Assembly: GCF_024343615.1 (NCBI RefSeq)
Contig: NZ_RJUB01000159.1
Span: 1 to 64,000 of the forward strand
Direction: 5' to 3'
DNA length: 64,000 bases
Source of the DNA: Ferruginibacter sp. HRS2-29
GTDB taxonomy: Bacteria; Bacteroidota; Bacteroidia; Chitinophagales; Chitinophagaceae
Each line of letters begins with the position of its first letter. The first letter of the stretch is position 1. The notes beneath the pieces were generated by a model. It saw only the letters and a program-made list of their open reading frames with translations, made no database searches and was not told the DNA's origin. The position numbers and the translations under genes were made by a program. Positions 1-61,583 of this stretch are shown here, piece by piece.

Positions 1-1327
1 GCTTGCCCGGAAAACAGACAGTCAGGTTTTCTACGGAAAGAATGGTCTTTTTCTCTGTTTCCCGAAATATATTTTCCTCCGAAGTTACTACCAGGCCGCC
101 GTTGTTGGTATTATCCTTAACCATACTTTTATCGCCGCCGTTGTTGGTGTTATCACCAACAACATCCTGTGTAGCAGCATAGGCGGTACCATCAGCAATA
201 TTCATTTTTTCGCCATTGCCGGTGTTATCCTTAACCATACTTTTATCGCCGCCGTTGTTGGTGTTATCACCAACAACATCCTGTGTAGCAGCATAGGCGT
301 TACTATCAGCAATATTCATTTTTTCGCCATTGCCGGTGTTATCCTTAACCATACTTTTATCGCCGCCGTTGTTGGTGTTATCACCAACAACATCCTGTGT
401 AGCAGCATAGGCGTTACTATCAGCAATATTCATTTTTTCACCATTGCCGGTGTTATCACCACCCAGATTCTTATCAATATTATCCCTTTCGATAAAATCG
501 CTGATGACCGGCAATCTTTTTCCCTTACTCCCTGCGCCGGGTCTGCAGGCCAGCAAAGCTTTGGTATACGGATGTTTGGGAGATTGTAATATTTCTTTGG
601 CGTCGCCTTGTTCCACAATCTGCCCCCTGTACATCACGATCACTTCATCGGCCATGTCGGCCACCAGTGCCAGGTCGTGGGTGATGAGCAGCACGGCCAT
701 GTTGTTTTGCTCCTGCAGGCCTTTGATGAGTTGAAGTATATTTTTTTGCACCCTTACGTCGAGCGCTGTGGTTGGTTCGTCGGCTACCAGTATCGCTGGG
801 TCGCAGCTCATCGCCATCGCGATCATCACACGTTGCTTTTGTCCGCCGCTCAGCTGATGCGGATACCGGTTGAATATTTCCGCGGGTTGGGGTAATGCCA
901 CCTGCACAAATAAAGCCAGCACCTGGTTTTTGGCGGAAGCCTTACTGATCTTCTTGTGTTTTATCAATGATTCCATTACCTGGTTTCCACAGGTATACAC
1001 CGGGTTCAGGGAAGTCATGGGCTCCTGGAAGATCATGGCGATCTTATTGCCGCGGATATCGCGGATCTGTTTTTCGGAAAGTTTTGTAAGGTCCTGCGAT
1101 TGTTTTCCATCCTCGCTGAAAAGTATCTCGCCTTTGAGCATGGTCTGTTTTGGCAATAACTGCAACAGCGATAATGCCGTCACCGATTTGCCCGAACCGC
1201 TTTCCCCTACAATGGCCGTCAGTTTGCCAGGGTTCATGCTGAAATTGCTGCTGTGCACAGCTTTGGCTGTTCCGTCTTTACCCGGAAATTCGATCTGCAG
1301 GTTGTTGATCTGTAAAAGCGGAAGCAT
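1..1327 (-). CDS. Dual-domain ABC transporter ATP-binding protein (oligopeptide/GsiA-YejF type), C-terminus cut by window edge
   Basis: The protein powers import of peptides or similar solutes at the inner membrane. The frame opens with ATG at 1327 and stays open to base 1 (about 442 residues). The first nucleotide-binding domain has Walker A GESGSGKS at residues 41-48, a Q-loop in IFQEPMTSLNP, signature LSGGQKQR near 157 and Walker B ILVADEPTTALD near 180. It ends in the oligopeptide-type sequence HPYTKALLACRPG. A linker of about 150 residues follows, with three in-frame 38-residue repeats (about residues 292-405). A second domain then begins (ILSVENLTVCFPGK) and runs off the window. Two fused ATPase halves fit the GsiA/YejF family, where the linker is normally short and unrepeated. 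AMP nucleosidase lies upstream on the same strand, and a 33-bp palindrome separates the two. The family call is firm; the substrate is unknown. Confidence 0.9.
   Translation of the reverse strand, partial: MLPLLQINNLQIEFPGKDGTAKAVHSSNFSMNPGKLTAIVGESGSGKSVTALSLLQLLPKQTMLKGEILFSEDGKQSQDLTKLSEKQIRDIRGNKIAMIFQEPMTSLNPVYTCGNQVMESLIKHKKISKASAKNQVLALFVQVALPQPAEIFNRYPHQLSGGQKQRVMIAMAMSCDPAILVADEPTTALDVRVQKNILQLIKGLQEQNNMAVLLITHDLALVADMADEVIVMYRGQIVEQGDAKEILQSPKHPYTKALLACRPGAGSKGKRLPVISDFIERDNIDKNLGGDNTGNGEKMNIADSNAYAATQDVVGDNTNNGGDKSMVKDNTGNGEKMNIADSNAYAATQDVVGDNTNNGGDKSMVKDNTGNGEKMNIADGTAYAATQDVVGDNTNNGGDKSMVKDNTNNGGLVVTSEENIFRETEKKTILSVENLTVCFPGK
111..452 (-). repeat. Three tandem 114-bp in-frame repeats in the ABC transporter linker
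   Basis: Three near-identical units of 114 bp lie at 111-224, 225-338 and 339-452. Each equals 38 codons, so the reading frame is kept. Each unit encodes two related Asn/Gly-rich blocks (DNTGNGEK and DNTNNGGDK) joined by an Ala/Gln-rich stretch. Each contains a hairpin with 10-bp arms, GTTGTTGGTG and CACCAACAAC, around TTAT (140-163, 254-277, 368-391). Degenerate partial copies flank the array near 101-110 and 449-460. Units differ at only a few bases, so the expansion is recent. Confidence 0.95.
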
Positions 1328-9016: not shown

Positions 9017-9027
9017 AATAAAATAAA

Positions 9028-9184
9028 ATTACGAATTACGAATTACGAATTACGAATTACGAATTACGAATTACGAATTACGAATTACGAATTCACTTTT
9101 GGCGGCGCAAGATACTAAAAGCCTGTATAGTCAAGATTTACCAGCCGAATTAATCCATTCGTAATTCGTAATTGCCAATTCGTA
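9028..9184. repeat. Heptamer-armed spacer: nine ATTACGA units and inverted ATTCGTA units
   Basis: Nine exact ATTACGA copies occupy 9028-9090. ATTCGTA, ATTCGTA, ATTGCCA and ATTCGTA follow at 9157-9184, which are reverse complements of the first array. The 66-bp core contains a minus-strand near-promoter (TATCTTG). The arms could pair into a long cruciform or RNA hairpin. Confidence 0.95.
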
Positions 9185-9870: not shown

Positions 9871-10141
9871 ATTGATAATTGATAATTTGATAATGGATAA
9901 TGTATGAAGTTCATTCAGATGATAAAAACGCTGAGCCTGATCATTATCCACTATAATGTTTTTTTGCCGTCGTTGGTGTTATCACCAACGACTTTCGGGC
10001 TATTGTTGGTGATAACACCAACAATGGCGAAGGCCATCAATGGCGAGAATTGTATAATGTATAATAACGAAGTTCATATAAATCGTAAAAACTTAAACCT
10101 GACGCATTATCCATTATCCATTATATAATTATCCATTATAA
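9871..10141. repeat. Repeat-filled spacer: ATTGATA/AATGGAT heptamers and two GTTGGTG hairpins
   Basis: This region fills most of the 456-bp gap between ccmB and the metallopeptidase. Heptamers run at 9871-9902 and, inverted, at about 9939-9959 and 10100-10141. Between them are two hairpins: GTCGTTGGTG with CACCAACGAC around TTAT (9969-9992), and ATTGTTGGTG with CACCAACAAT around ATAA (10002-10025). These match the hairpin repeated in the ABC linker at 111-452. Bases 10142-10306 are AT-rich leader of the metallopeptidase with no motif recognised. Confidence 0.85.
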
Positions 10142-22763: not shown

Positions 22764-22769
22764 TTATCA

Positions 22770-22856
22770 ATTACGAATTACGAATTACGAATTACGAATT
22801 TTCAACTTATTGAACTAATTCGTGTAATACGTGAAATTCGATTCGCCGAAGGCGAA
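22770..22856. repeat. ATTACGA heptamers, AATTCGTGT nonamers and TTCGCC/GGCGAA hairpin before the WbpO-like gene
   Basis: Four exact ATTACGA copies (22770-22797), degenerate nonamers (22817-22843) and a perfect hairpin TTCGCC-GAA-GGCGAA (22842-22856) fill the spacer. Confidence 0.9.
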
Positions 22857-39040: not shown

Positions 39041-39602
39041 GAGCAATTTTAGTTATGATGTTCCATTCATCTTCGCGGAAAATAATATTTATTTCCGGGT
39101 CGTATTTTTCGGAGATAAAAAAAAACTTGTCCGAATTATTCATAACTATCCAACTGTCGCAAATGGGTATAAAAATATTTATAAGATTTTTTATTCCGCT
39201 TTTATACCTTCTTTGAATGACATCCTTAGGAATATGATGCCCTCCTTTTTCAACACGTAATTGGACCCTGTCGATTGCCAAATCTACGGAATTTAGCCAA
39301 AAGAATAGTAATGTTACCTCATAACCAACATTTTGCGCTTCTTGAATTAACGACCGATAAGAACGTGTGGCAAGCGTAGTTTCAATTGCGAAATTTTCTT
39401 TTAATGCTATCAATTCGTCAATTCTTTTAAGCATGATCCTGCCTGCCTGTACAGCAACCTTCTCCGGCTGAAACGGAGATAATCCACGTGCAATCTCATC
39501 AGCGTTTACAAACTCTTTGCAATTCAGTTTTTCGGGTAATACATTGTAAGACGCAGTCGTTTTACCTGCGCCATTTGTCCTCAAAACCCCGGAGGTTTTC
39601 AA
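39027..39602 (-). pseudogene. Zeta-toxin family kinase with damaged N-terminus
   Basis: 191 residues of the zeta-toxin/UDP-GlcNAc-kinase-like family: TNGAGKTTASYNVLPEKL, CKEFVNADEIARGLSPFQPE, FAIETTLATRSYRSLI, VTLLFFWLNSVDLAIDRVQLR and HHIPKDVIQRRYKSGIKNL. Relatives begin with about ten residues ending in the P-loop start AGP. Here the frame instead begins with a TTG inside a 33-bp palindrome (39584-39616), and the P-loop Gly is replaced (LRTNGAGKTT instead of GPNGAGKTT). One extra C would restore GPNG, but that frame meets a stop just upstream. The gene is probably inactive or altered. A small partner ORF overlaps its end. Confidence 0.75.
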
Positions 39603-39616
39603 AACCTCCGGGGTTT
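39584..39616. repeat. 33-bp palindrome (copy 2 of 4) forming the 5' end of the zeta-toxin gene
   Basis: Arms AAACCCCGGAGGTTTT (39584-39599) and AAAACCTCCGGGGTTT (39601-39616) are perfectly paired around one base. It lies 18 bp after the stop codon of the E. coli-type IDH gene. Confidence 0.95.
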
Positions 39617-50279: not shown

Positions 50280-50780
50280 ATGACCATTTCACTCATCGTT
50301 GCCGCATCCGAAAACAATGCCATTGGCAGACAGGGCCAGCTGCTCTGGAGCCTTCCCATCGATCTTAAATTTTTCAAAGACACCACCTGGGCCATGGTAG
50401 TGGTCATGGGGCGTAAGACATACGAAAGTGTAGATAAACCTTTGCCCGGCAGGGTCAATATCGTGATCACCAAACAAGCCGATTGGTCAAGGCCGGGCAC
50501 ACAGGTGGCCAAAGACCTGGATGATGCTATTGCGCAGGCGAAAGCTACCAATTGTAAAGAGATATTCATCATCGGCGGCGGAGAAATATACAGGCAAAGC
50601 ATGGACATAGCCGATAAGATTTATATGACCCGTGTGCATGCCACCCTCGAAGGGGATACTTATTTTCCGGAGATCGATCCATCAAAATGGATAATGACCG
50701 GGCATGTGGATTTTCTGAAAGATGAAAAGCATGCTTATGATTTTTCATTTCAAACATGGGAGAAAAAAATTACGAATTAA
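50280..50780 (+). CDS. folA: Dihydrofolate reductase
   Basis: Reduces dihydrofolate to tetrahydrofolate with NADPH. 166 residues of normal bacterial type: ISLIVAASENNAIGRQGQLL with LWSLPIDLKFFKDTTW, MGRKTYESVDKPLPGRVNIV, KEIFIIGGGEIYRQSM, TRVHATLEGDTYFPEID. The acidic active-site residue is Asp in LPIDLKFF. The final codons (Ile-Thr-Asn-stop) are formed by the ATTACGA heptamer array that begins at 50769, so the C-terminus extends into repeat DNA. It works with thyA upstream. Confidence 0.95.
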   Translation: MTISLIVAASENNAIGRQGQLLWSLPIDLKFFKDTTWAMVVVMGRKTYESVDKPLPGRVNIVITKQADWSRPGTQVAKDLDDAIAQAKATNCKEIFIIGGGEIYRQSMDIADKIYMTRVHATLEGDTYFPEIDPSKWIMTGHVDFLKDEKHAYDFSFQTWEKKITN

Positions 50781-50839
50781 TAATTACGAATTACGAATTA
50801 GAATGTACCACATTCGTAATTCGTAATTCGTAATTCGCA
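50769..50839. repeat. Inverted ATTACGA / ATTCGTA heptamer arms across the folA stop codon
   Basis: ATTACGA, ATTAATA, ATTACGA, ATTACGA, ATTAGAA (50769-50803) face ATTCGTA x3 and ATTCGCA (50812-50839) in inverse orientation around an 8-bp core. The arms end about 9 bp before ATG 50848. Confidence 0.95.
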
Positions 50840-50847
50840 ATTTATTT

Positions 50848-61550: not shown

Positions 61551-61583
61551 AAACCCCGGAGGTTTTTAAAACCTCCGAGGTTT
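61551..61583. repeat. 33-bp palindrome (copy 4 of 4) upstream of fmt
   Basis: Arms AAACCCCGGAGGTTTT (61551-61566) and AAAACCTCCGAGGTTT (61568-61583) with one mismatch, around one T. Confidence 0.9.

Follow-up and report, generated by a model that had tools for sequence, protein, structure and literature searches.

The window, meaning the whole stretch of 64,000 nucleotides that was analysed, begins at base 1 of contig C158 in a genome assembly of 5.07 Mb and 161 contigs. At its left edge lies a minus-strand gene for an oligopeptide-type ABC ATP-binding protein (identified with Pfam by ABC_tran and oligo_HPY) in which a tandem array of 114-bp units occupies the linker that follows the first ATPase domain (Table 1). 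In C158 the minus-strand array is a single open frame with the peptide VVGDNTNNG in every unit, and pairwise comparison of the three units finds 1, 3 and 4 differences in 114 bases. Each unit carries one exact copy of the 24-mer GTTGTTGGTGTTATCACCAACAAC (140-163, 254-277 and 368-391), a palindrome of 24 bp with a 10-bp stem, a 4-nt loop and the tag GCC/GGC on one side; the stability of its hairpin is -13.5 kcal/mol (RNA parameters). In coding order, a unit reads VVGDNTNNGG, DKSMV and KDNTGNGEK, the last of which is, in our own reading, a second and decayed REP-like word. From PVISDF to TILSVENL the linker has 149 residues with seven DNT motifs, and its composition is biased and polar (26 N, 20 G and 18 D).

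Table 1. Features of the ABC transporter gene and of the intergenic palindrome pair in the window
Feature	Position	Strand	Basis or remark
First ATPase domain, linker with repeats and start of second ATPase domain	2..1327	-	ABC_tran 2.6e-25, oligo_HPY 4.5e-07
Tandem array in linker, 3.1 copies of 114-bp (38-codon) unit	107..457	-	TRF, 98% matches
Array unit, outermost, adjoining second ATPase domain	107..220	-	
Array unit, middle	221..334	-	
Array unit, adjoining first ATPase domain	335..448	-	
Palindrome (probable REP) with GCC tag in array	137..163	-	tag at plus-strand 137-139; codes VVGDNTNNG
Palindrome (probable REP) with GCC tag in array	251..277	-	tag at 251-253
Palindrome (probable REP) with GCC tag in array	365..391	-	tag at 365-367
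Intergenic palindrome (probable REP), first of inverted pair	9966..9992	+	GCC tag at 9966-9968
Intergenic palindrome (probable REP), second of inverted pair	10002..10028	-	GGC tag at 10026-10028

The window takes in no more than the beginning of the second ATPase domain. The gene runs on into contig C145 (56,972 bases), where its continuation was read and where the remainder of the domain, with the Walker A sequence GESGCGKT, is found. An earlier note on this DNA had placed the repeats in a linker between two ATPase domains, which is confirmed, with the second domain lying mostly on C145 and outside the window. The last ~680 bases of C145 match C158:1-679 except at one junction inside the array, where C145 differs by a net +2 bp and its version of the array translates into stops. 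Most simply, the locus is one gene spanning a contig break; an apparent second array at C145:56398 proved to be this locus again, seen in the overlapping contig end, and was rejected. The number of units and the exact structure of the array depend on the assembly because the two contig ends overlap yet disagree, and the array is an example of a repeat at which contigs can end and assembled versions conflict. The three in-frame 114-bp units of the earlier note are present in C158, where they are found by TRF and form an open frame, but their number is unsettled given the frame-breaking junction of C145.

The contig ends that meet at the array and disagree also bear on two alternative readings. 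The array may have been misassembled (collapsed, expanded or chimeric), in which case the real gene would be shorter or broken. However, both versions hold several REP units and C158 is open through to the second ATPase domain, and misassembly is regarded as unlikely. Near-identical units with a stable hairpin, together with two differing assembled versions, could instead mark a hypervariable contingency locus at which hairpin-driven slippage makes the linker longer in some cells than in others and tunes the transporter. In the C145 version the frame is broken and array is joined to array flank, which fits an assembly error better than a variant under selection; a contingency locus is considered quite improbable. 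The near-identity of the units reported in the earlier note stands, but its claims that the copying was recent and that the array is expanding and varies by slippage are not established by one assembly that breaks at the array.

The palindrome is dispersed. Two further copies of GTTGTTGGTGTTATCACCAACAAC, each with 2 mismatches, lie in intergenic DNA of the window at 9969-9992 (+) and 10002-10025 (-) and are mutually inverted, in agreement with the earlier observation of two hairpin cores at 9969-10025. No match to GTTGTTGGTGTTATCACCAACAAC was obtained in 100 dinucleotide shuffles of the window. Genome-wide, the core GTTGGTG-N4-CACCAAC occurs at 34 exact places compared with 0 for a reversed control; six of the 34 are the array counted on two contigs, which leaves 31 after removal of the second reading. 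The tag plus core at up to 3 mismatches gives 42 forward and 34 reverse matches (1 and 2 for the control), from which about 21 loci were counted by eye. The hairpin word is present in other intergenic DNA across the genome, an occurrence on which the notion of an interspersed repeat depended. The palindrome shares with REPs the character of a dispersed short hairpin, and its copy number is modest for a REP. Most copies in this genome are outside genes and many form inverted pairs. GGC directly follows the stem in 28 of 28 distinct contexts in the own genome (A-rich-loop orientation), which include copies within one array and were gathered by searches without the tag in the pattern, and GCC precedes the stem in 2 of the 28. 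For the 175 contexts in other genomes, fetched with the tag in the pattern, the tag letters are found at 95-98%. An unpaired, one-sided tag at the foot of the hairpin, which is also characteristic of REPs, is therefore present. The DNA between the palindromes of the array behaves differently: other genome matches of a 344-bp query span just 25-74 bases around the palindrome, and this query gave no occurrence of the units' spacer DNA outside the array in the own genome.

Some arrangements of repeats stand apart from the linker. At C7:82510-82795 (L048), seven palindromes lie outside a known gene, first a single copy and then six in direct orientation at 43-bp spacing. A paired-REP element of ~160 bp, resembling a miniature transposon, is present at C6:49688, C19:24538 and C29:16525; the C19 and C29 copies are identical at 155/161 positions, and the C6 copy, which opens a stop-to-stop frame of 747 aa, matches the others at 136/162 and 137/163. 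A weak match at C125:43703, inside an ORF, was treated as chance. The window also contains a second short palindrome with arms AACCTCCGGGGTTT (one arm mismatched) at 1385-1417, 39584-39616 and 61551-61583. Its arms give 6 matches in the window compared with 0.01 expected, and it is possibly another REP class or a terminator-like element. Heptamer tandem repeats of the form (AATTACG)n, with variants, are found at 9027-9093, 22769-22800 and 50768-50842, where an 18-mer of the repeat has 21 overlapping matches in the window compared with 0 expected.

The linkers of orthologous transporters are ordinary. A search of 39 genomes gave 31 with a match (own included) and 29 loci from other genomes. The HPYT region and the second Walker A are 91-113 residues apart in 28 of the 29 orthologues (26 loci, or 28 with a second anchor; L201 is unmeasured) and 221 residues apart here, in keeping with the earlier suggestion that the linker has been lengthened. 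NTNNG was found in none of the 26 orthologous linkers examined. The core matches somewhere in 6 of the 29 orthologous loci at 3 mismatches and in none at up to 2, and no match at up to 3 mismatches is inside a measured linker. The palindrome is thus absent from every orthologous linker examined, and the repeated linker is not shared by the orthologues examined. A sister-strain empty site for the palindrome was not found. The frame kept over three units and the biased polar composition could point to an ancestral or selected protein repeat, with the DNA palindrome as a by-product of the peptide. However, the 28 measured orthologues have at most 113 residues, the 26 linkers are without NTNNG, and in its own genome the palindrome is mostly outside genes. 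An ancestral protein domain was rejected on the linkers of the orthologues and the dispersal of the palindrome; this reading, already largely refuted, is very improbable indeed. The idea of the earlier note that an interspersed palindrome sits in frame in a tolerant linker agrees both with the ~21 genome loci and with the ordinary linkers of the orthologues.

The palindrome is linked to RAYT transposases through other genomes. The C48 protein of this genome, in which the motifs NHLH and YIHSNP were read by eye, was compared with 198 genomes of the class; 49 genomes matched, and 30 loci were taken by protein alone. A GTG-N4-6-CAC hairpin with a stem of at least 8 lies within 250 bp on the 5' side at 8 of the 13 loci scoring at least 114 bits, at 0 of the 17 loci below that score and in 4 of 333 control windows; the dividing line was set after the scores were seen, and the RAYT tree yields the same division. 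The other 5 of the 13 close loci have no such hairpin in the 5' flank. The 3' flank carries a hairpin at 7 of the 13 (one locus is without 3' sequence). Stems vary between genomes with the pairing kept (CGGTG/CACCG, CAGGTG/CACCTG, TTCGTG/CACGAA and TCTGTG/CACAGA). Upstream hairpins have mostly T-first loops with gcc or a near form before them, and downstream hairpins have A- or G-first loops, often with ggc after them; exceptions are the flanking hairpins at L208 and L211, which have another tag. In a midpoint-rooted tree of 42 sequences (3 of 45 were left out as short), all 18 flanked RAYTs, part of which had been picked by palindrome, fall in one 23-row clade with support 99/97. This clade also includes the own-genome C48 copy and four unflanked RAYTs, and its 18-row sister group contains none that is flanked.

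The genome itself supplies no such pair. Neither C48 nor its nearest relative L207 is flanked by a hairpin, and at up to 3 mismatches the core is not beside any of the four own-genome Y1_Tnp hits; one 3-mismatch match is ~950 bp from the C126 Y1_Tnp gene. A cognate transposase sought in the flanks of own-genome RAYTs was dropped for lack of a flanking palindrome, and the link is drawn via other genomes. No resident mobiliser is demonstrated, as the own-genome RAYT and Y1_Tnp hits are all unflanked. Two loci nearby in kind were also recorded. At C1:141500-141730 (L060), a palindrome pair (at C1:141562) lies directly before a short sequence that resembles, on reading by eye, a RAYT C-terminus; the locus is possibly a REPtron relic. 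On own contig C125, different strong hairpins at L062:1281-1375 adjoin a Y1_Tnp gene (1411-1884) and may mark the termini of a separate element of IS200/REP type.

The palindrome is not confined to this genome. The core is present in 24 of 295 genomes of the class (own included), with the highest number, 34, in the own genome and 30 in the next. The exact 24-mer GTTGGTGATAACACCAACAACGGC occurs in at least 111 stretches of named genomes; the names of the 80 matches listed are those of Bacteroidota throughout, the phylum to which we take the carrying genera to belong.

In several genomes the palindrome is read as protein. Carriers were sought as long ORFs among 275 distinct palindrome places (at most 2 mismatches), many of which ORFs are spurious. 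Pfam assigned a family to 8 of 10 carrier proteins, with PMT_2 in L065 falling under its cut-off; L065 carries two copies, read VGVITNNG and VGVFTNNK, and the L164 and L095 carriers have no Pfam family. Searching other ORFs of the own genome for the hairpin word found an M23 peptidase at C153:12814, and with the ABC linker this makes two loci, among the part of the palindrome loci with annotated genes, at which the palindrome is well inside a long Pfam ORF. Carriers other than these two come from metagenome-assembled genomes. In riboflavin synthase RibE (L108), 9 residues stand at the site compared with 2 in all 20 aligned homologues (the best 20 of 372 matching genomes among 395), a net gain of 7. 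TilS (L138) reads another frame of the palindrome, LLVITPTT, in a variable stretch, and the palindrome of the M23 peptidase is likewise in a length-variable stretch; a clean insertion was dropped for both since their homologues vary in length there. The nitrilase-like (L089) and enolase-superfamily (L102) carriers can be aligned with PDB chains over almost their whole length, and as the PDB homologues have a comparably long segment there, a net insertion is unproved in both. An amidohydrolase ORF in L102, a two-mismatch match only, was not counted. Palindromes in frame inside conserved proteins are therefore found in the ABC linker, M23 peptidase, RibE, TilS, nitrilase-like and enolase-superfamily proteins, a trait that resembles the Rickettsia palindromic elements (RPE) by analogy only. 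The in-frame hits in several conserved enzymes were counted for the REP explanation. The earlier statement that no such case was known in this phylum is weakened by the in-frame palindromes in genes of other Bacteroidota/Bacteroidetes genomes and by in-frame REPs in tnpAREP genes of a Bacteroidetes-rich subclass (accessible text of PMC6006769).

Dispersal, the one-sided tag, flanking of a RAYT clade in other genomes and absence from orthologous linkers suggest that the palindrome is a REP. As a whole, the explanation that it is a RAYT-linked REP, placed in the linker and then tandemly amplified, is likely. The REP would be a non-autonomous hairpin with relatives that flank a RAYT (TnpA-REP) clade in inverted orientation, their GCC tags standing at the outer foot. 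Some RAYT from this clade, present in the lineage now or formerly, would have put a REP or REP pair into the naturally length-variable linker between the ATPase halves. Five of the six frames of the 24-bp word are open, which could explain why such an insertion was tolerated; here the word yields a polar peptide. A block of 114 bp, divisible by three and containing an intact REP as well as a decayed REP-like word, would then have been duplicated in tandem, adding roughly 108-130 residues to the linker. The absence of the array in orthologues and its polar composition suggest that the product is probably a longer, flexible and near-neutral tether and not a new domain. A bolder reading, in which a Bacteroidota family of GCC-tagged REPs with its own RAYT clade repeatedly wrote the same peptides into enzymes and is here amplifying in frame so that linker length varies between cells, is possible but rather doubtful. 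A transposase-linked REP identity adds a mechanism to what the earlier note inferred. The locus offers a test case for mobile DNA turning into protein sequence, as one palindrome is read in several proteins and in more than one frame.

The palindrome was judged to form a new family of REPs, of a kind already known, and its tandem amplification in frame to be unusual. Among the best-ranked literature matches, supplements and most subscription papers aside, none concerned this palindrome or GCC-tagged REPs. It resembles REPtrons, REPINs and BIMEs in its one-sided tag, dispersed copies, inverted pairs and hairpins on both sides of a tyrosine transposase. In the accessible part of PMC3733652, however, the published superfamilies of REPs are tagged GTAG or CGTC, whereas the tag here is GCC. 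Neither GTAG nor GTGG stands at the 5' foot, where the strand with the T-loop bears GCC, and CGTC stands at neither foot. RAYT recognition has been described for GTAG hairpins (accessible text of PMC8266576), and the GCC tag and GTG...CAC apex rule let it be tested beyond GTAG systems. Judged by eye from the C48 motifs, the transposase clade appears close to the mostly Bacteroidetes RAYT subclass 2.6, for which the available portion of PMC6006769 gives the motifs NH[LIV]H, WQ and YIH[QN]NP and describes atypical hairpins around the genes. The "atypical secondary structures" of subclass 2.6 may be this hairpin or a related one.

Repeats of this kind within genes have been described before. REPs are found inside ORFs in several species, and CGTC repeats occur in Bacteroidetes among others (PMC3733652, accessible part); clusters that code for 43-82 aa are reported from Thauera and R. 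conorii (PMC3733652). The present palindrome is like intragenic REPs and RPEs in being a mobile palindrome in frame at tolerant protein sites, and differs in sequence and tag and in forming a tandem block of ~114 aa or more in one linker. It shares in-frame insertion with the REPs in tnpAREP genes of subclass 2.4, which is abundant in Cyanobacteria and Bacteroidetes (PMC6006769, as far as its text is accessible), but those REPs lie in the transposase itself and the copies here lie in unrelated enzymes and a transporter. Tandem palindromic coding repeats, with cited cases in Rickettsia, Wolbachia and Methanocaldococcus, are described in the accessible text of PMC2996958, and the PARCELs of that paper are alike in being tandem coding repeats with dyad-symmetric DNA. 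PARCELs are 25-aa amphipathic repeats, whereas the array here encodes a polar linker, has many intergenic relatives and is linked to a transposase.
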